Shown piece after piece: positions 33,075 to 45,602 of a stretch of DNA of 64,000 bases. A model generated the notes under the pieces. It saw nothing but the letters and a program-made list of their open reading frames with translations. It ran no database searches and was not told the origin of the DNA. The translations under genes were made by a program, and so were the position numbers. This stretch comes from Paracidovorax avenae (GTDB lineage Bacteria > Pseudomonadota > Gammaproteobacteria > Burkholderiales > Burkholderiaceae_C): the NCBI RefSeq assembly GCF_040892545.1, contig NZ_CP156079.1, positions 3,383,501-3,447,500 of the forward strand, in the 5' to 3' direction. Within the stretch, counting starts at the first letter, position 1, and each line of letters begins with the position of its first letter.

Positions 33075-33728
33075 ATGACCACGACCTCCGCTGCCACTGC
33101 AGCCAACCCCACCTCCGCCTCTACCGCCGAACGCCGCCGCCAGGCCGTCGATGCCGCCCTGGCCGACGTGCGCCGCCTCACCGCGCAGGGCACGCCCGAC
33201 CGTGCCGCGCTCTCGGCCATCACCGGGCGGCTGGAGCAACTGGCCGCGCACAGGGACCTGTTCAGCCGCGCGGACTTCCCGCCGCCCGCGGAGACGGCCG
33301 GCGTGGGCGCCTCCACGCGCTACCGCCTCAACCCCGCGGACGGCGACGGCGGCCTGGCGCTGTACCTGAACTCCATCAACCCCGGCAAGACCACCGCGCC
33401 GCACAACCACACCACCTGGGCCGTGATCGTGGCCGTGGAAGGCCAGGAGGTGAACCGCCTGTACGAGCGCACCGACGACCGCAGCGACCCCGCCCGCGCG
33501 CGCATCCACGTGGCGCGCGAATTCACCGTGCAGCCCGGCGCGTCCATCGCCTTCCTGCCCGACGACATCCACAGCATCGCTGTGGTGGGCACCAAGCCCA
33601 CGCTGCATTTCCACCTGTATGGCCAGCCGCTGGAGACACTCACGGGCCGCGTCGCGATCGACCCGGACACCGGCGAAGTCAAGAACTACAACGCCGCCTA
33701 CTTCCGCCCCAGCGAGGCCGTGGCATGA
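33075..33728 (+). CDS. Cysteine-dioxygenase-like cupin (thiol dioxygenase)
   Basis: 217 residues. The double-stranded beta-helix carries His110 and His112 in APHNHTTWAV and His166 in PDDIHSIAV as the probable three-His iron site, and HLYG at 180-183 matches the His-x-Tyr of CDO. The Ser of the CDO Ser-His-Tyr set is replaced by His178, and the cross-linking Cys position is Val. An Arg in TRYRLN stands where the CDO carboxylate-binding Arg would be. Expected reaction: O2-dependent oxidation of a thiol to a sulfinate. Overlaps the next gene by 4 bp. Substrate unproven. Confidence 0.82.
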   Translation: MTTTSAATAANPTSASTAERRRQAVDAALADVRRLTAQGTPDRAALSAITGRLEQLAAHRDLFSRADFPPPAETAGVGASTRYRLNPADGDGGLALYLNSINPGKTTAPHNHTTWAVIVAVEGQEVNRLYERTDDRSDPARARIHVAREFTVQPGASIAFLPDDIHSIAVVGTKPTLHFHLYGQPLETLTGRVAIDPDTGEVKNYNAAYFRPSEAVA

Positions 33729-34993
33729 GCGGCCCCGATATCCGCCAGCACGGCAACCCACACCCCGCGCCGCTCGGCGCCGCCACCCGGCTGCTGCATG
33801 CCGGCGCGCCCGCGCTGCGCGGCGGCTCCGGCCCCGTGAACGTGCCCGTGGTGCGCACCAGCACCGTGCGCTTCGGCAGCACCGCGGACCATGCGGAGCA
33901 CCACCACCGCCGCGCGGCAGGCGAGCGCGTGGCCTCGTACGGCCGCCACGGGCTGGACACGCACCGCGCGCTGGAAGACGCCGTGACCGCGCTGGAGGGC
34001 GGCCACCGCGCCTTCCTCGCGCCCTCGGGCCTGGCCGCCATCACGCTGGTGCTGGTCGCCCTGCTCTCGCCCGGCGACCACGCCCTGGTGGCCGACAGCG
34101 TGTATTCGCCCGTGCGGCGCGTGGACGCCACGCTGCTGCAGCGCCTGGGCATCACGCTTGAATACTTCTCGCCCTCGCAGGGCGACCTCGCCGCGAAGAT
34201 CCGGCCGAACACCCGGCTGATTTACGTCGAATCGCCCAGCTCGCTGCTCTACGAGGTGCTGGACCTGCCCGCCATTACCGCCGTGGCACGCGCGCGCGGC
34301 ATTCCCGTGGCCACGGACAACACCTGGAGCGGCGGATGGTTCTGCCAGCCCCTCCGGCTGGGTGCCAACATCTCGATCCAGGCGGCCACCAAGTACATCG
34401 CCGGCCACTCGGACGTGATGCAGGGCATCGTCGTCACCGATTCGGAAGAGCTCACCGGCAGGATCGCCACCGCCTACGAAGCGCTCGGCCTCACCGTGGG
34501 TGCCGACGACGCCTACCTAGCCCTGCGCGGCGTGCGCACCCTGCCCGTGCGCCTGGCGCAGCACCAGCGCCACGCCACGCGGGTGGCCGAATGGCTGCAG
34601 GAGCAGCCGCAGGTCGGGCGCGTGTTCTACCCGGCCCTGCCCTCCGACCCGGGGCATGCGCTGTGGAAGCGGGATTTCACTGGAGCGAGCGGGCTGGTGT
34701 CGTTCGCGTTCGCGGACGGCAACGGAGGGCATGGCCATGGCGGCGTGGATGCGCGCGGCGCGAATGCGTTCGTGGATGCCCTGCGGTTTTTCGGCATCGG
34801 GGCGTCGTGGGGTGGGTACGAAAGCCTGGCGCTGGTGGCCCAGCCGGAGCGGCTGCGGGAGCACAGTGTGTGGACGGGGACTGCGCCGGTGGTGCGGCTG
34901 CATGTGGGGCTGGAGGATCCGGAGGATTTGATTGGGGATCTGGGGCAGGCGTTGGGGAAGGTGGCGACGCGGGAGTGGTTGGCGGCGGCGTGA
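33725..34993 (+). CDS. Cystathionine beta-lyase-type PLP enzyme (Cys/Met metabolism)
   Basis: 422 residues, Cys/Met_meta_PP family. The PLP Lys is in IQAATKYIAGHSDVMQG, with YGRHGLDTHRALEDAVTALE, FLAPSGLAAI and VATDNTWSGGWF. Closest in pattern to MetC-type beta-lyases, which split a C-S bond to release a thiol, pyruvate and ammonia. The last gene of the sulfur locus. An extra Gly/His-rich loop (GNGGHGHGGVDARG) occurs near residue 340. Downstream, base composition drops sharply at the cassette array. Confidence 0.88.
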   Translation: MSGPDIRQHGNPHPAPLGAATRLLHAGAPALRGGSGPVNVPVVRTSTVRFGSTADHAEHHHRRAAGERVASYGRHGLDTHRALEDAVTALEGGHRAFLAPSGLAAITLVLVALLSPGDHALVADSVYSPVRRVDATLLQRLGITLEYFSPSQGDLAAKIRPNTRLIYVESPSSLLYEVLDLPAITAVARARGIPVATDNTWSGGWFCQPLRLGANISIQAATKYIAGHSDVMQGIVVTDSEELTGRIATAYEALGLTVGADDAYLALRGVRTLPVRLAQHQRHATRVAEWLQEQPQVGRVFYPALPSDPGHALWKRDFTGASGLVSFAFADGNGGHGHGGVDARGANAFVDALRFFGIGASWGGYESLALVAQPERLREHSVWTGTAPVVRLHVGLEDPEDLIGDLGQALGKVATREWLAAA

Positions 34994-35011
34994 AGGGGCG
35001 ACGGCGGCTTT

Positions 35012-35025
35012 GCAGCGATCGCTGC
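35012..35025. repeat. 14-bp perfect palindrome at the array border
   Basis: GCAGCGATCGCTGC lies between the end of the lyase gene and the first attC site. It could be a weak terminator stem or a protein site; no T-run follows. Confidence 0.3.
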
Positions 35026-35094
35026 CGTTCGCATCTCGGTCACGAATGGGTGCTATCGGCTAGGAGCGGCCTGTGGCGGCAGATTGAAGCGAAC

Positions 35095-35142
35095 GCTCAA
35101 CGCCGCGTTCACCGGTTTGTCCGGTGCAACGCTTTGTTAGCC
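35095..35142 (-). other. Integron attC site 1 (48 bp)
   Basis: On the minus strand it runs from GGCTAAC (7-bp left end, one mismatch to RYYYAAC) to the core site GTTGAGC. CGTTGCACCGG pairs with CCGGTGAACG around a five-base loop, with one unpaired G on the left arm only. That extrahelical base on the gene-proximal arm is the hallmark that sets attC orientation, and it points the same way as the TIR gene. The TIR stop codon abuts the site. Confidence 0.85.
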
Positions 35143-35973
35143 TTAAATTAGTTTGTTCATGTCTATTTTGTAGCCCGATTGTTTCATCTCTTTTGCTAGT
35201 TGTAGTTGCCAAGCCGAGCCTTCATCAAGACTAATGTATACAACACCACTAATGTCGTTTGGAAGCTCTAGCTTGCCGTCTACTAGCGCGGAGACATTTT
35301 GGCGACCAAGTCTACCTATAAGATAGCCATGTTCAAAAACCACATTCTGTCTCGCGCGAACATTCAAATTATCGGGCGCTGATTTAACATTACCAACATC
35401 ATCAGGGGTATATAGGACAATCGCGAATCCAACATCTGAATAATGCTCGATTTTTTCAATAATAGTTCTTCCTGAGCTGGATTTTTCATGAAGGATAATT
35501 GCTTCAAAGCCTAATCTCTCCACAAACCTGGCAGCTTTATTTTGAGCGCTTTCATCATGCCCATGAACAATAAATACTCTTTTGGGTTCACCTTCTTTAC
35601 CCTTTTGAGTATTGCCTTTGGTTTCTTGAAGGGCTTTCTTGTATCCGATAGCACCTTCGATAAATTCATCCGTTACATCTGTAGCTCTTCCAATTGCTTG
35701 GTACGTGTAAGATGGACCTCCAATAAAAGCAACTGATGATGCTTGATCCTCAGCTTTAATCTGAGGGATAAAAGACTCAATTGTTCTTTCGCTCTTTGAA
35801 ATTCTTATTCGCTCGAGATCATTTGGTTGAACAGTTTTTCCGTTGATAACAATTGGCGCTCCCTGCTCGTAGGGCTCAACAAATCTTGAAATCAGCTGTT
35901 CTTTGGTGAGATCTGTTTTGTACTCACCGTAGTATTTATCTGATTTCGGTTTAATTATTACGTGATAGAACAC
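35143..35973 (-). CDS. TIR-domain (pfam10137-like) protein in an integron cassette
   Basis: 276 residues. The C-terminal half (131-276) is the TIR-like domain of predicted nucleotide-binding proteins: KRVFIVHGHDESAQNKAARF, VGFAIVLYTPDDVG, and RARQNVVFEHGYLIG with Glu214 as a probable NADase residue. The N-terminal 110 residues are a separate alpha/beta region of unknown role. The start is GTG at 35973 with AAGGAG five bases upstream, just after the core of attC site 2. Low GC and A/T-ending codons contrast with the chromosome. Related TIR effectors work in phage defence with a cyclic nucleotide synthase; none is adjacent here. Confidence 0.85.
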   Translation of the reverse strand: MFYHVIIKPKSDKYYGEYKTDLTKEQLISRFVEPYEQGAPIVINGKTVQPNDLERIRISKSERTIESFIPQIKAEDQASSVAFIGGPSYTYQAIGRATDVTDEFIEGAIGYKKALQETKGNTQKGKEGEPKRVFIVHGHDESAQNKAARFVERLGFEAIILHEKSSSGRTIIEKIEHYSDVGFAIVLYTPDDVGNVKSAPDNLNVRARQNVVFEHGYLIGRLGRQNVSALVDGKLELPNDISGVVYISLDEGSAWQLQLAKEMKQSGYKIDMNKLI

Positions 35974-35989
35974 GACGACTCCTTAAAGG

Positions 35990-36056
35990 GCCTAACACCA
36001 AAGTTGAGGGGCAACGATGCGAAGCATTGTTGTCCCACTCGAACTTACGGTTAGGC
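35990..36056 (-). other. Integron attC site 2 (67 bp)
   Basis: Minus strand: GCCTAAC at one end and core GTTAGGC at the other, both matching the consensus exactly. AAGTTCGAG on the left pairs with CTCAACTT on the right, with one extra base on the left arm, and an imperfect inner stem (GGGACAACAATGC with GCATCGTTGCCCC) closes it. Orientation equals site 1. It separates the TIR cassette from the two-gene cassette. Confidence 0.93.
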
Positions 36057-36146
36057 TGGTGGCCAATGCAAAGGTGATTGAGCGGCGCACAGCGTTGATG
36101 CTGGCGGCAGCTGATATAGCTGACGCCAGTACTGTTCCGCTGGCAT

Positions 36147-36506
36147 TTAGCTGGTGGAACGAAGAATCTTTGCCTTGAAGTCATCGGAAGTGAATTTCAT
36201 CTTTTTCCGAAGAAGTTCGTCTAGATATATTGTCTGTGCGCTCTGCACTCCAACAGCAACAAAGCCTTCAATTTCCGGTAGTTTTTGCAATTGACGCCTA
36301 GCTTCAGCGACTGCACGCTGCACCAGAGACTCATCCTGAACTACTTTGAGCTCCACTACAAAAGTTTCATTGGCTTTGTAGGCCAACAAATCGGCTCGCC
36401 GTCCGGATTGCAATCGTACCTCGGTTTCGACTTGATACTTATTTCGGATGAGGCCTTGAGCAATAGCAAGCGCAACAAACATTTCAGCCTGACGGGTTGA
36501 AGACAT
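36147..36506 (-). CDS. Small PD-(D/E)XK nuclease-like protein
   Basis: 119 residues. The pattern Asp39 in SGRRADLLAY, then Glu52-Leu-Lys54 in FVVELKVVQDES, plus Glu8 in an N-terminal helix, fits a minimal restriction-like nuclease core. It starts 8 bp after the upstream gene with GAGG six bases before the ATG, inside that gene's end, so the two are coupled. Second gene of the cassette; attC site 2 follows. Function in nucleic-acid cleavage is inferred; host or phage target unknown. Confidence 0.65.
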   Translation of the reverse strand: MSSTRQAEMFVALAIAQGLIRNKYQVETEVRLQSGRRADLLAYKANETFVVELKVVQDESLVQRAVAEARRQLQKLPEIEGFVAVGVQSAQTIYLDELLRKKMKFTSDDFKAKILRSTS

Positions 36507-36514
36507 TTAAAACC

Positions 36515-36985
36515 TCATTTAAGAGAAGTCTTGAAGGAATACGCAGAAGCTTGAAAGTGACTCAAGACCTCACCGTAGAGCTTTTTTAGGGTTGATGCAT
36601 TACGTAGGTTGTAGAGTTTGGGAATGGAGTTAAGTGTTGACTGGCTTTCGATCCCACAAATCCAAACCCTCTCCTTATCTCCATCAATTTCAACGCCCGC
36701 CACATAAACCGGAGCTAACCCAGCTTTGGCTCGCGTCACGCAGGTTCCATTAAATCCCGCCTTGAACATCGGACTCGGTTTGACGTGGGATGTCTTGACT
36801 TGAACAAAAAAATGCGGACCGAACGCTTTGCCGGATGGATTGAGCAGGGAGACATGAAAATCTAGCAGTTGAGCCTTCGGTCCAAGGAAGTGAGGCTCAA
36901 ACCCATTGTGTTTTGCCACGGGTTTTACAAAGCACATTGACACTGCGTTCTCGCCGCGATCTCCAATCAAATTTGTGACCAGCAC
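36515..36985 (-). CDS. DUF4365-like PD-(D/E)XK protein
   Basis: 156 residues. LIGDRGENAVSMCF at the start, LLDFHVSLLN (Asp42) and HFFVQVKTSHVKP (Gln62-x-Lys64) follow the G-E-x-A ... D ... QxK order of DUF4365-type nucleases. Start is GTG 36985 with AGGAGG four bases upstream. First gene of the two-gene cassette, right after the core site at 37035-37029. Low GC like its neighbours. It may act with the next gene; whether as toxin/antitoxin, restriction or another defence unit is not clear. Confidence 0.65.
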   Translation of the reverse strand: MLVTNLIGDRGENAVSMCFVKPVAKHNGFEPHFLGPKAQLLDFHVSLLNPSGKAFGPHFFVQVKTSHVKPSPMFKAGFNGTCVTRAKAGLAPVYVAGVEIDGDKERVWICGIESQSTLNSIPKLYNLRNASTLKKLYGEVLSHFQASAYSFKTSLK

Positions 36986-37028
36986 GTCACCTCCTTTTAA
37001 AAATTATGCGGGGTCTTCACTCTCCAGA

Positions 37029-37068
37029 GCCTAACGTGATTTATCCCGCAACCTGCGGAATAAACTGG
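37029..37068 (-). other. Partial or degenerate attC site 3
   Basis: On the minus strand a stem TTTATTCCGCA / TGCGGGATAAA leads into TCAC and the core GTTAGGC (37035-37029). No RYYYAAC-like left end is visible where expected, so the far arm has decayed or was replaced. The core marks the start of the two-gene cassette. Confidence 0.6.
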
Positions 37069-37361
37069 ACCATGCGGCATATTGTGGACACGCATTCCTC
37101 CTGGAAGCCGCTTGTAGCAAAGGTTTCAAGGGATGGTCTGTTCAAACGTCCAGTATAAAAATTTCTATAAAACCCGGCACGCGTAAACTCGGCGAAACTA
37201 TAGCTCGCCAGCCAGCAGACACCGGGATTTCCAACAGCTGCTGCAGCAAGTCAATAGTGGGTTCCGGGTGGCGCTTATGAACGGCGGCTCAGGGCCCACA
37301 GCCGCCGCCTGAGCAGTCCTCATCGAGTGCCTGCAACCAACCTGAGGCTTGTCTATCGAGC
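37069..37361. other. Gene-poor spacer between the cassette array and the IS30 element
   Basis: About 290 bp of mixed composition. A short minus-strand frame ending near 37145 and a 16-codon minus-strand frame behind an AGGAGG site running into attC site 3 are visible, but neither is long enough to call. No integrase gene, no attI site recognised. Confidence 0.4.
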
Positions 37362-37387
37362 GGTCTCAAACCTGAAGTGCAACACCT
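37362..37387 (+). repeat. IS30 terminal inverted repeat, left
   Basis: 26 bp, exact reverse complement of 38445-38470; the transposase stop codon lies inside it (37366-37368). Confidence 0.92.
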
Positions 37388-38422
37388 CGATTGAGAGGGA
37401 GTTTCCGTTTCAGTGAATGGTACTGCGCAATGGCCTGCATGAACTGCTGGAATGCCTGGTAGGGAGATCGCCACTGCAGGGGCTCGTGAGGACGGTTGTT
37501 CATGAGGTCGGCAATGGAGTCGAGCGCCGCTTGGTCGTGGATGCCCAGGTCGGTGCCCTTAGGCAGGAACTGGCGCAGCAGCCCGTTGGTGTTCTCGCAG
37601 CTGCCACGCTGCCATGGGCTGTGCGGATCGCAGAAGTACAAGCGCACGCCCGTGGCCTGGGCGAGTTCGCGGTGGCGGGCCATCTCCTTGCCCTGGTCGT
37701 AGGTGAGCGTCTGGCGCATGGGCCGGGCTACCTGGTTGAGCTTGGACGTGAAGGCTGCCAGGGCCGATTCTGCAGTGGCATCGGGCATGCGGCACAGCAG
37801 CACCAGACGCGTGCTGCGCTCGACCAGGACGCCCACGGCGGGGCGGTTGTTGGCGCCCTTGATGAGATCGCCCTTCCAGTGCCCGGGCATGAGCCGGTCG
37901 TCGGCCTCGGGTGGGCGCACGTGGATGCTGACCATGTCGGAGATCTGTCCACGCCGGTCCTGGCCGGCGGAGCGGGGGCGGCGCCCGCTGCGGCCCTGGC
38001 GCAGCAAGGCGAGCAACTGCTTCTTCAACTCCCCGCGGGGATAGGCATAGATGGCGTTGTAGATGGTTTCGTGGGACACGCTCTGGCGTGGGTCGTCGGG
38101 ATGCATGCGCTGCAGTGTGCAGGCGATCTGCTGGGGCGACCAGCGCCAGAGCAGAAGATCGCAGACGATGCGCCAGAGGCGGCCATGCTGATGCAGCTTG
38201 GGGGCAGGACGCGCTGCGGTGCGGCGGGCCTGGCAGGCAGCCTGGGCGGGCCGCGAGGCATAACCACCATCAGGGGTGCTGTTGCGTGCCAGCTCCCGGC
38301 ACACGGTGCTCGGGCTGCGCCCGAGGGAGGCGGGCGATGGATCGCCCGCTCCATCCCTACTGGACCAGCGAGGCCAGCGTGAGGCGTTCTTCGAGCTGCA
38401 AGTGCGTGTATCGCGAAGTCAT
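37366..38422 (-). pseudogene. IS30-family transposase with stop codon and frameshift near the N-terminus
   Basis: The minus-strand ATG at 38422 begins MTSRYTHLQLEERLTLASLV as expected for IS30 transposases, but codon 22 is TAG (38359-38357), and about 50 bases later one extra C (in CGCCTCCC) shifts the frame before STVCRELARNSTPDGG. From there an intact frame of about 312 codons (38304-37366) holds the catalytic part: MPGHWKGDLIKG, LTYDQGKEMARH and SPWQRGSCENTNGLLRQFLP give the DDE triad. Loss of the N-terminal DNA-binding helix-turn-helix should stop activity unless an internal start is used. Confidence 0.85.
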
Positions 38423-38444
38423 CTGGGCAAGTTACCTGAGGTTC

Positions 38445-38470
38445 AGGTGTTGCACTTCAGGTTTGAGACC
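38445..38470 (-). repeat. IS30 terminal inverted repeat, right
   Basis: 26 bp, exact reverse complement of the left repeat; 22 bp upstream of the transposase ATG at 38422. Confidence 0.92.
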
Positions 38471-38535
38471 ACCCCTCAAGCGGACTACCGCCGCCTCAAC
38501 GAACTGGCTGCCGAGCAACGGCCCTCAAACAAACG

Positions 38536-39246
38536 TCACCCAGCCCGGGTTACCCCTCCATCCACCCGCAAACTCTGCCCCGTGATGTAGCCCGCCCCCT
38601 CCGACGCCAGGAACGCCACCGTCGCCGCCACCTCCTCCACCCGGCCGTACCGCCCCAGCGGGATCGACGCGCGGCGCTCTTCCCACTCGGGCAGGCTGTC
38701 GATCCAGCCCGGCAGGACGTTGTTCATGCGGATGTTGTCGCGCGAAAAGCTGTCCACGAAGATGCGGGTGAACGCGGCGAGGCCCGCGCGCATGACGGAC
38801 GAGGCCGGGAACAGCGCGCTGGGCTCCAGCGCCCAGGCCGAGGAGATGTTGATGATCGCTCCGCCCCGGCCCTGCCGCTGCATGCGCGGCACCACGAGCC
38901 GCGTGGGCCGCACCACGTTGAGCAGGTAGGTGTCCATGCCCTGCAGCCAGTGCTCGTCGGAGAGTTCCAGCAGCGGGGCCCGGGGGCCATGGCCGGCGCT
39001 GTTGACCAGCACGTCGATGCGGCCCCACCGCTGCTCCGCGCGCTCCACCAGGGTGCCGAGGTCTTCCAGCGACTGGTTCGATCCGGTCACGCCCACGCCG
39101 CCGAGTTCCTCGGCCAACGCCTCGCCCTTGCCGGACGACGAGAGGATGCCGATGTGGAAGCCGTCCGCCGCCAGCCGGCGTGCCGCAGCCGCCCCGATGC
39201 CGGATCCGCCCGCGGTGACCAGTGCCACTTTTTTTTCTACTGCCAT
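38536..39246 (-). CDS. Short-chain dehydrogenase/reductase lacking the usual Tyr-Lys pair
   Basis: 236 residues. The Rossmann motif is TAGGSGIGAAAARRLA, with LVNSAGHGP and a C-terminal GYITGQSLRVDGG. The Ser of the catalytic set is present (INISSAWALEPS), but the YxxxK position reads PASSVMRAGL, Ser and Arg instead of Tyr and Lys. It may be a distinct SDR subgroup with altered chemistry. Start ATG 39246 is chosen among four clustered ATGs because GAAGGAG stands six bases upstream. Divergent from a LysR gene 134 bp away. Confidence 0.85.
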   Translation of the reverse strand: MAVEKKVALVTAGGSGIGAAAARRLAADGFHIGILSSSGKGEALAEELGGVGVTGSNQSLEDLGTLVERAEQRWGRIDVLVNSAGHGPRAPLLELSDEHWLQGMDTYLLNVVRPTRLVVPRMQRQGRGGAIINISSAWALEPSALFPASSVMRAGLAAFTRIFVDSFSRDNIRMNNVLPGWIDSLPEWEERRASIPLGRYGRVEEVAATVAFLASEGAGYITGQSLRVDGGVTRAG

Positions 39247-39380
39247 CATCATCTCCTTCGTCATCATGGCCATACTTGCGCACGCCAGTGGGCGCCCACC
39301 GATTGTGGAATCGTGCGGTGCTTTCAGGTCGGGAGATTGCGGCAGCCCAGCTGCTCCGATTCAGTAGAAAATCTACACCC

Positions 39381-44256: not shown

Positions 44257-44772
44257 TCAGACGAACTTCTGTGGCATGAAAATGAATGCCGTGGCGATAT
44301 TGGAGGCCAGGAGCAGCCATACTGCGGTTGCGAGCGTGGAAAAACGCCAAGCGGAGGCACGCTGCATCAATACCGACCCACGGAAGAAACAAGCCACCAG
44401 CGGAAACATCGCTGTGCTGGCCACCAGCCACACCAGAGCGAAGCTTCCGAACCGCGCAAAACCGGTCTGCAGGCGCATTCCTGTCAGCATGGCTCCCAGA
44501 TAAAACAATATGACCCATGCGGCTGCCTCGATCCACCACAGACGGGTCGCTCCGGCCCAGGTGGGATTTCGACGGGGCAGCAGTCGCAGGCAAATGAAGC
44601 CAAGGCAAACCAAGGCGGCCAGGAGAATCGTCGCACTCGCGATGATCGACAACTCCTGCCACGCACCGATACTGAGATAGAAAAACGGCACGATCGCCAA
44701 GCCGAGCATGGCGGAAGCCAAGCCAAGTGCGCCCCACCGGTTGCAAGAATGTCGTTGCATCATTTCTTTCAT
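44257..44772 (-). CDS. Small membrane protein coupled to the DUF3289-like gene
   Basis: 171 residues with four predicted transmembrane helices (about 14-36, 41-64, 76-99, 105-127) and a fifth hydrophobic stretch near the C-terminus (FSTLATAVWLLLASNIATAF). I do not recognise a family. Its ATG at 44772 overlaps the stop of the upstream gene (ATGA), so the two are made together. Lower GC than the chromosome. An immunity-type role for the neighbour is a hypothesis only. Confidence 0.7.
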   Translation of the reverse strand: MKEMMQRHSCNRWGALGLASAMLGLAIVPFFYLSIGAWQELSIIASATILLAALVCLGFICLRLLPRRNPTWAGATRLWWIEAAAWVILFYLGAMLTGMRLQTGFARFGSFALVWLVASTAMFPLVACFFRGSVLMQRASAWRFSTLATAVWLLLASNIATAFIFMPQKFV

Positions 44773-45602
44773 ACTGCAGGCACTTCGTAGCTTCTGGTCA
44801 ATACCACCCGGGTGACCAACGGAGGGTAGGCGAATTGATGCTGTAGTTGCCACCAAGCCGTGATGCCGACCCTTTGAGCGAAAGAAAAACCACCATCGGA
44901 TTGAGCACCATACTCTCTCAGGTCATCATCATCCAGGCCAAAAACGTCGTACAAGACAAACTTCAATGTTATTTGGTACCGACCTCTCTCACGATCATAC
45001 CCGTAGGCAGTGGCTATCACATAGACATGCTGGACGCCGTTGATCATCAGACCGAGGCCGTTGCCATAGTCCTGGGTTGCGAAAAATTGGCTGCCGGCAT
45101 TAAATGCAGGCACCCCCAAGTCCATCGGCACCTGCAAATTCCTGATGTTCCAGTCAGCATTCTTGAGTGCCTGATGAATGCGAATACTGCCAGGGGTTTT
45201 ATAGGGGGAATTGGGAGCGGACAGCGCTGCACTGCAAAAATACTCCATGTTGGCATGACTGGATACCAACCCAGTCAAACGTGGATCTTCAAAATACTCA
45301 ACGCCCCTCCGATTTTCTCCAAGAAACTCGGAGAATAACGTGCGCGCCACTCCGGTCGTATCTGCCTTGGCAAAAATTCCCAACAATTTTTCCATCTTGG
45401 GTTTCAGCACATCCACAGTGTCCCCGACACTCTGCCGCTGCGGCGCCGACGCTCGGCAGCCATAGGTAATATCCTGTCCATATCGAGGAGCGGGAACGGA
45501 AGGCAGGTGCACACCGTCGGCAAGTGGATGAATGGGGGATAGATATCTGTCCCTGGCAACCGCCACGACTATGGGCTCATTTATTTCGCTGATGAATTTC
45601 AT
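44769..45602 (-). CDS. DUF3289-like protein in an AT-rich patch
   Basis: 277 residues. The C-terminal 120 residues match the DUF3289 style: YQITLKFVLYDVFGLDDDDL followed by ITAWWQLQHQFAYPPLVTRV. The N-terminal part has YGCRASAPQRQSVGDTVDVL and HANMEYFCSAALSAPNSPY. No signal peptide. Start ATG 45602 is chosen as the first Met giving a plausible N-terminus; GTG alternatives exist upstream. Codons ending in A/T are far commoner than in neighbours, suggesting transfer. Function unknown; the family is often near secretion-system genes elsewhere (recollection). Confidence 0.65.
   Translation of the reverse strand: MKFISEINEPIVVAVARDRYLSPIHPLADGVHLPSVPAPRYGQDITYGCRASAPQRQSVGDTVDVLKPKMEKLLGIFAKADTTGVARTLFSEFLGENRRGVEYFEDPRLTGLVSSHANMEYFCSAALSAPNSPYKTPGSIRIHQALKNADWNIRNLQVPMDLGVPAFNAGSQFFATQDYGNGLGLMINGVQHVYVIATAYGYDRERGRYQITLKFVLYDVFGLDDDDLREYGAQSDGGFSFAQRVGITAWWQLQHQFAYPPLVTRVVLTRSYEVPAV

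Follow-up and report, generated by a model that had tools for sequence, protein, structure and literature searches.

Arrays of attC sites that lack an integrase (CALINs) are defined in IntegronFinder as two or more attC with no intI (PMC9024848). CALINs lying far from intI are reported from Xanthomonas, and CALINs are stated to be mobilizable in trans (PMC12444791); cassettes may also enter chromosomes at attG sites (PMC12901181, PMC12444791). Little has reportedly been described of attI sites other than those of class 1, and they go undetected by IntegronFinder, such that platforms of the type reported here would be filed as CALINs. The open-licence literature, represented mostly by titles and the beginnings of abstracts, yielded no description of a dispersed, integrase-less platform bearing an attI.

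We analysed a 64,000-nucleotide stretch of the Paracidovorax avenae chromosome (NZ_CP156079.1; hereafter the window). Positions 35057-37306 very probably represent an integron platform that has lost its integrase gene, comprising attI and its leader, two cassettes that are oriented away from it, and a distal end. The features of this region are as follows.

35057..35101, no strand assigned: L end, the conserved distal platform end (42-50 nt conserved), which starts inside the last attC, core GTTGAGC
35095..35142, minus: attC 1, terminal attC of the TIR cassette
35101..35995, minus: cassette 1, 895 bp between G|TT cut points
35143..35973, minus: TIR-domain protein of 276 aa (start codon GTG), a phage-defence candidate of type PDC-S35 (Pfam, PADLOC and fold)
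35990..36056, minus: attC 2, terminal attC of cassette 2
35996..37034, minus: cassette 2, two genes, 1039 bp (sequence and cut points)
36147..36506, minus: 119-aa PD-(D/E)XK nuclease-like protein (Pfam)
36515..36985, minus: 156-aa protein, distant relative of DUF4365 (PF14280) by family alignment
37029..37035, minus: core GTTAGGC at the junction of cassette 2 and attI, where attI homology starts
37035..37166, plus: attI and intI leader, intI lost
37167..37181, plus: remnant of intI codons 1-5, ATA AAA CCC GGC ACG
37215..37306, no strand assigned: E segment, the conserved end on the side of the lost intI, 90% identical to a consensus composed from copies
37362..38470, minus: IS30-family insertion sequence adjoining the platform, transposase 37366-38304 (NCBIfam transpos_IS30, E 3.8e-86; ends read from the sequence)

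Array structure and the remains of an integrase gene

Rfam gave no gathering-level match in the window and therefore could not judge the attC sites. A covariance model was trained on 20 non-redundant sites from arrays beside intact intI in the same family, giving E-values that are rough. Twenty regions were fetched for training, a 582-base contig end was left out, and seven of the 19 regions used held no candidate; since candidates were restricted to canonical cores, the model favours such cores. With filters off, it scored 35990-36056 at 29.7 bits (E 7e-6) on the minus strand versus 14.0 bits on the plus strand, which sets the array orientation as minus. The match at 35095-35141 on the minus strand reached 13.4 bits (E 0.17), alone not significant, and the core at 37029-37035 yielded no match. 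At both sites the cores are conserved and the arms are complementary, with one base of the 5' arm left unpaired. A search of the whole genome with the model found at least four further hits scoring higher than 13.4 bits (16.1-20.1 bits, E 0.24-2.7) among the 150 of 5648 candidates that were scored; the 29.7-bit site of the window was missing from these, and so the search provides no attC count for the genome.

These results bear on the first-pass annotation of the locus, which had proposed two minus-oriented attC sites and a covariance search of the block. The proposed positions and orientation agree with the cores, arms, unpaired bases and strand-specific scores described above, although the search, run with our own model as opposed to that of IntegronFinder, was persuasive for attC 2 and just 13.4 bits for attC 1. 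Its description of the genes as all running on the minus strand is borne out by all three cassette genes, and the TIR stop codon does abut attC 1 (35143-35145). The statement that each gene begins just after a core holds except for 36147-36506, which comes second of the two genes in its cassette. The two kilobases concerned have a GC content of 43-48%, against mostly ~70% elsewhere, as the annotation had noted from the chromosomal contrast. Its report of no intI in the window likewise stands, given that tblastn with four IntI proteins found none at E 1e-6. Its report of no attI, in contrast, was mistaken, because the third core adjoins one. The proposal of a third core with half a stem at 37029-37068 was right as to the GTTAGGC core, but the feature is an attI/cassette junction in which the model finds no attC.

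The identification of 37035-37181 as attI, leader and intI vestige follows from alignment with four intI-bearing loci (L196-L199). These loci read ATGAAACCCGGCAC(A/G)CCTGTTTTGCGC, and the vestige aligns to their ATG AAA CCC GGC ACA/ACG with ATA in place of the start codon ATG. The window and nine other copies keep the leader and start region (in the window, ATAAAACCCGGCACG) and then switch to sequence like CTCGGCAAACTATAGCTTGCC. An attI sequence of this type adjoins intI or its start in G019, G314 (twice), G224, G058 and G110, the loci outside G110 being L163, L164, L168, L173 and L179. The attI described here is identified by its sequence homology and its G|TT junction. A degenerate LexA-box-like palindrome, CTGTTCAAACGTCCAG, was also observed at 37138-37153, where the four aligned intI-bearing loci read CTGT-N8-ACAG; its degeneracy is as expected once intI is lost. 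Transcription of the cassettes would proceed from the attI side. A simple scan for consensus promoters across 34950-37400 returned one promoter-like site, away from attI.

Elsewhere in this genome, an IntI profile gave seven matches, all outside the window and none over the cut-off. Among them is a recognised intI remnant (C1:298.4-298.9 kb) consisting of two short pieces with the C-terminal part missing, and the remaining matches were taken for other tyrosine recombinases. As the sole recognised remnant is broken, the cassettes would not be moving in this genome at present. A second, broken integron was observed in this region (L008 8336-10830; C1:298.3-300.8 kb), with an attI that does not resemble the one in the window, the same L end and a long attC-like site scoring 17.9 bits. 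Fragments of intI were found at E 1e-30 in two of 17 genomes of the same genus, and a match at E 1e-60 was present in 89 of 200 genomes of the family, indicating that possible helpers are common.

In four relatives (G002, G003, G006 and G014), different cargo occupies the chromosomal site of the platform, which is delimited by 33725-34993 and 38536-39273. By eye these differ from one another, and none carries the window cargo there, with the exception of the IS30 element in G006. The interval 35028-38474, between a cystathionine beta-lyase-like gene and an SDR gene, has the appearance of a hotspot. A second block of lower GC content (51-58%) was observed at 44257-45602, where two ORFs, of 171 and 277 aa, lie on the minus strand.

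The two cassettes and their genes

Breakpoints at the core sites in relatives, which the first-pass annotation had proposed as a check, were seen for the TIR cassette. Cassette 1 DNA is 91.5% identical over 899 bases to a sequence in Marinospirillum insulare (L021) and 77% identical over 901 bases to one in a Kangiellaceae metagenome-assembled genome (L022). Identity starts at the GTTAG core, with 24/30 matching positions inside versus 10/30 outside in L021, 21/30 versus 7/30 in L022 and 21/30 versus 9/30 in a third locus, L025. It ends after the terminal GTT in L021 (28/30 inside versus 7/30 outside) and L022 (29/30 versus 4/30). Since these limits coincide with the core and with the integrase cut point, 35101-35995 behaves as an integrase-moved cassette. 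The TIR homologue in L022 is followed by a homologous 48-nt site scoring 28.5 bits, and comparison with the L021 and L022 breakpoints settles the assignment of attC 1, a predicted site that is weak when taken by itself. Of 322 loci with TIR relatives, 80 were kept and the 11 closest (L021-L031) examined. Among these best 11 of 80, L022 alone had an attC by the model at E 0.5, and attC sites were also discerned by eye in L021 and L027. The three Pseudomonas loci with TIR relatives showed no such flanks. A more distant TIR cassette, ~41% identical, was observed in a Hydrogenophaga metagenome-assembled genome (L067 4604-6933). Its attC scores 38.2 bits, and the integron that holds it has a truncated intI, the L end and 26 bases of the E segment.

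The TIR protein is 94% identical to one in Marinospirillum. It matched Pfam CAP12-PCTIR_TIR at 130.1 bits (gathering threshold 24.7) and, over residues 1-275, the full length of the PADLOC profile PDC-S35 (E 1e-96), a profile that carries no curated cut-off. Against the NCBIfam Cap12 equivalog it scored 39.2 bits, below the cut-off of 450. A TIR-like fold spans residues 128-276, and a conserved NVVFE-G motif in this C-terminal TIR domain aligns with Cap12; its Glu is presumably catalytic for NAD cleavage. The protein is probably an NAD-cleaving phage-defence effector, in which the N-terminal part would act as a sensor. No cyclic-nucleotide synthase was recognised among the three cassette genes.

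Cassette 2 probably encodes a nuclease-fold pair. The 119-aa protein passed two Pfam thresholds narrowly, PDDEXK_9 at 25.9 bits (cut-off 25.5) and MmcB-like at 23.1 bits (cut-off 22), and has one homologue beyond itself, at 54%. A Pfam search with the 156-aa protein itself gave no match. Of the seven proteins in its family alignment, five matched DUF4365, with E-values no higher than 0.1 and 5e-6 for the best. A search of solved structures with this protein gave no match, and its structure model (pLDDT 45) was set aside.

Integrase-less copies in other genomes

Within the genus (17 genomes), positions 37038-37365 matched one other genome, G010, over most of their length at 75% identity. Both array flanks, 50 bases on the left and ~270 on the right, surround other cassettes there at a different locus. 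No exact empty counterpart of the G010 copy was found: G015 matches the left flank up to the platform start and then continues into other DNA. At this locus G015 (L207 2720-3400) was observed to carry a short block of ORFs whose edges look similar to the L and E ends on visual inspection, and the block is possibly another relative of the platform. In an order-wide sample of 399 genomes, two matched at 1e-8, namely the window's own and G058, which has two matches, one belonging to the intI-start type. When the joined flanks were searched against the family, at least 28 places in at least 20 of 399 genomes were identified, an undercount given that two candidates were scored per genome. None of the 28 places listed is an empty platform spanning the joint, and plasmids gave no platform match at 1e-5.

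Junction scoring covered 25 attI matches; four of the 28 places (L171, L172, L176 and L178) have no entry in it. Fourteen of the matches, the window included, have the integrase-less junction (scores 22-39 of 39), five have an intI start, one of them (L173) on the basis of a protein match only, and six have neither. With G010 added, there are at least 15 integrase-less copies in at least 11 genomes of at least four genera, again counting the window.

Eight elements, of 341-2723 bp, carry both the L end and the E segment, those outside the window being L153 and L182-L187. The L end is also found at the far end of broken chromosomal integrons in this genome (L008) and in G013 (L132). A search with the E segment by itself matched two of 200 family genomes, one being the window's own, and intI was not found near the segment in the second. 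No convincing inverted repeats were found at the ends of the eight elements, their scores being reached by 22-104 of 300 shuffles. Matches between the two flanks were eight bases in L186, five in L187, four in L153 and L185 and fewer than four in the other four elements, and such uneven lengths indicate no consistent target duplication.

The eight elements have unrelated flanks, save for short repeats common to L182 and L187. Their interiors also differ: seven were compared, the shortest (L186) not included, and no common DNA was detected at E 1e-3. At the distal junction, six of seven elements have GTTGARCG and L187 has GTCGAGCG, with a GTCGAGC core. Of six attI junctions, five are exactly G|TT and that of L185 is G|CT, with one base changed; L187 has no attI. 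An attC was detected at E 0.5 in six of the seven other elements, the exception being L186. The overlap between L end and attC amounts to exactly the 7-base core in five of these six, and in L182 the attC was detected elsewhere.

Origin of the platform and its relation to known systems

The most likely history, reconstructed from these comparisons, is that intI was lost once and cassettes were subsequently loaded in trans. One ancestral deletion of intI would have preceded the divergence of the copies, and integrases from elsewhere in the cell, acting as IntI in trans, may then have loaded cassettes into the orphan attI. If intI was lost once and different cassettes later arrived at the same cut points, the recombinase must have come from elsewhere. 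Whether the copies further constitute a non-autonomous integron family, in which intI was lost once, the platforms then spread to numerous chromosomal loci in at least four genera and the orphan attI went on being loaded in trans, much as MITEs rely on transposases encoded elsewhere, is to our judgement evenly balanced. The chief competing account has old chromosomal integrons decaying separately at fixed positions, with cassettes gained whilst intI was still present and no loading in trans. Broken intI genes are indeed found repeatedly in this group, and two further copies, L191 and L194, occupy one locus. Nevertheless, separate deletions would hardly repeat a derived junction such as that shared by 14 of the 25 attI matches, in which the intI start gives way to sequence like CTCGGCAAACTATAGCTTGCC, and the two copies in G338, like the two in G239 (compared on one side), have unrelated flanks. 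We therefore consider separate decay unlikely.

Direct entry of cassettes at an attG site, with no integron platform ever present, would accord with a described insertion route, with the absence of intI nearby and with a distal core (GTTGAGC) unlike the internal GTTAGGC. It is nonetheless quite improbable, as the proximal flank is homologous to attI, the intI leader and its start codons, and the two flanks are found again elsewhere, enclosing different cassettes. Least credible of all is acquisition through a generic genomic island or hotspot without integron recombination. Different cargo at the same site in four relatives and the adjoining IS30 element fit such a process, yet homology stops at core cut points, in contradiction of it for cassette 1, and the attC and attI structure is likewise against it. 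The first-pass annotation had also preferred a cassette array to a generic island, and on this point we concur.

A common platform with cassettes that differ among the copies compared suggests that an integron without a recombinase can remain a landing site, in which case cassette traffic need not depend on a local intI. For loading in trans the copies offer a ready-made set of test cases, and the one described here carries a probable phage-defence gene.

Compared with CALINs, the locus is alike in having two attC-bounded cassettes and no integrase nearby; the two attC are the 29.7-bit site and the weak 13.4-bit site backed by breakpoints, as scored by our model, not IntegronFinder's. It differs in its attI and intI-start vestige, in two outer ends common to other copies and in having one weak attC. 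The CALIN label of the first-pass annotation thus holds for a cassette array without integrase but overlooks the attI, leader and first codons, and 'integrase-less integron' is a more fitting name for the locus than 'bare attC cluster'. Intact sedentary chromosomal integrons of the same family (e.g. G019) share a homologous attI, the intI leader, attC consensus and polarity, whereas here intI is cut to about five codons, the E segment stands in its place and there are two cassettes only. Relative to a complete integron, an attI is present by homology and by its G|TT junction, and this five-codon vestige is all that lies beside it of intI. Insertions at attG sites are similarly chromosomal cassettes without an adjoining intI, but the flank here is an attI as opposed to an arbitrary, ordinary chromosomal site. 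Finally, the TIR protein resembles PDC-S35 and CAP12-type proteins in its full-length PADLOC match and its C-terminal TIR domain, where NVVFE-G aligns to Cap12, and is unlike the CAP12 type in falling well below the Cap12 equivalog cut-off and in having a different N-terminal part.
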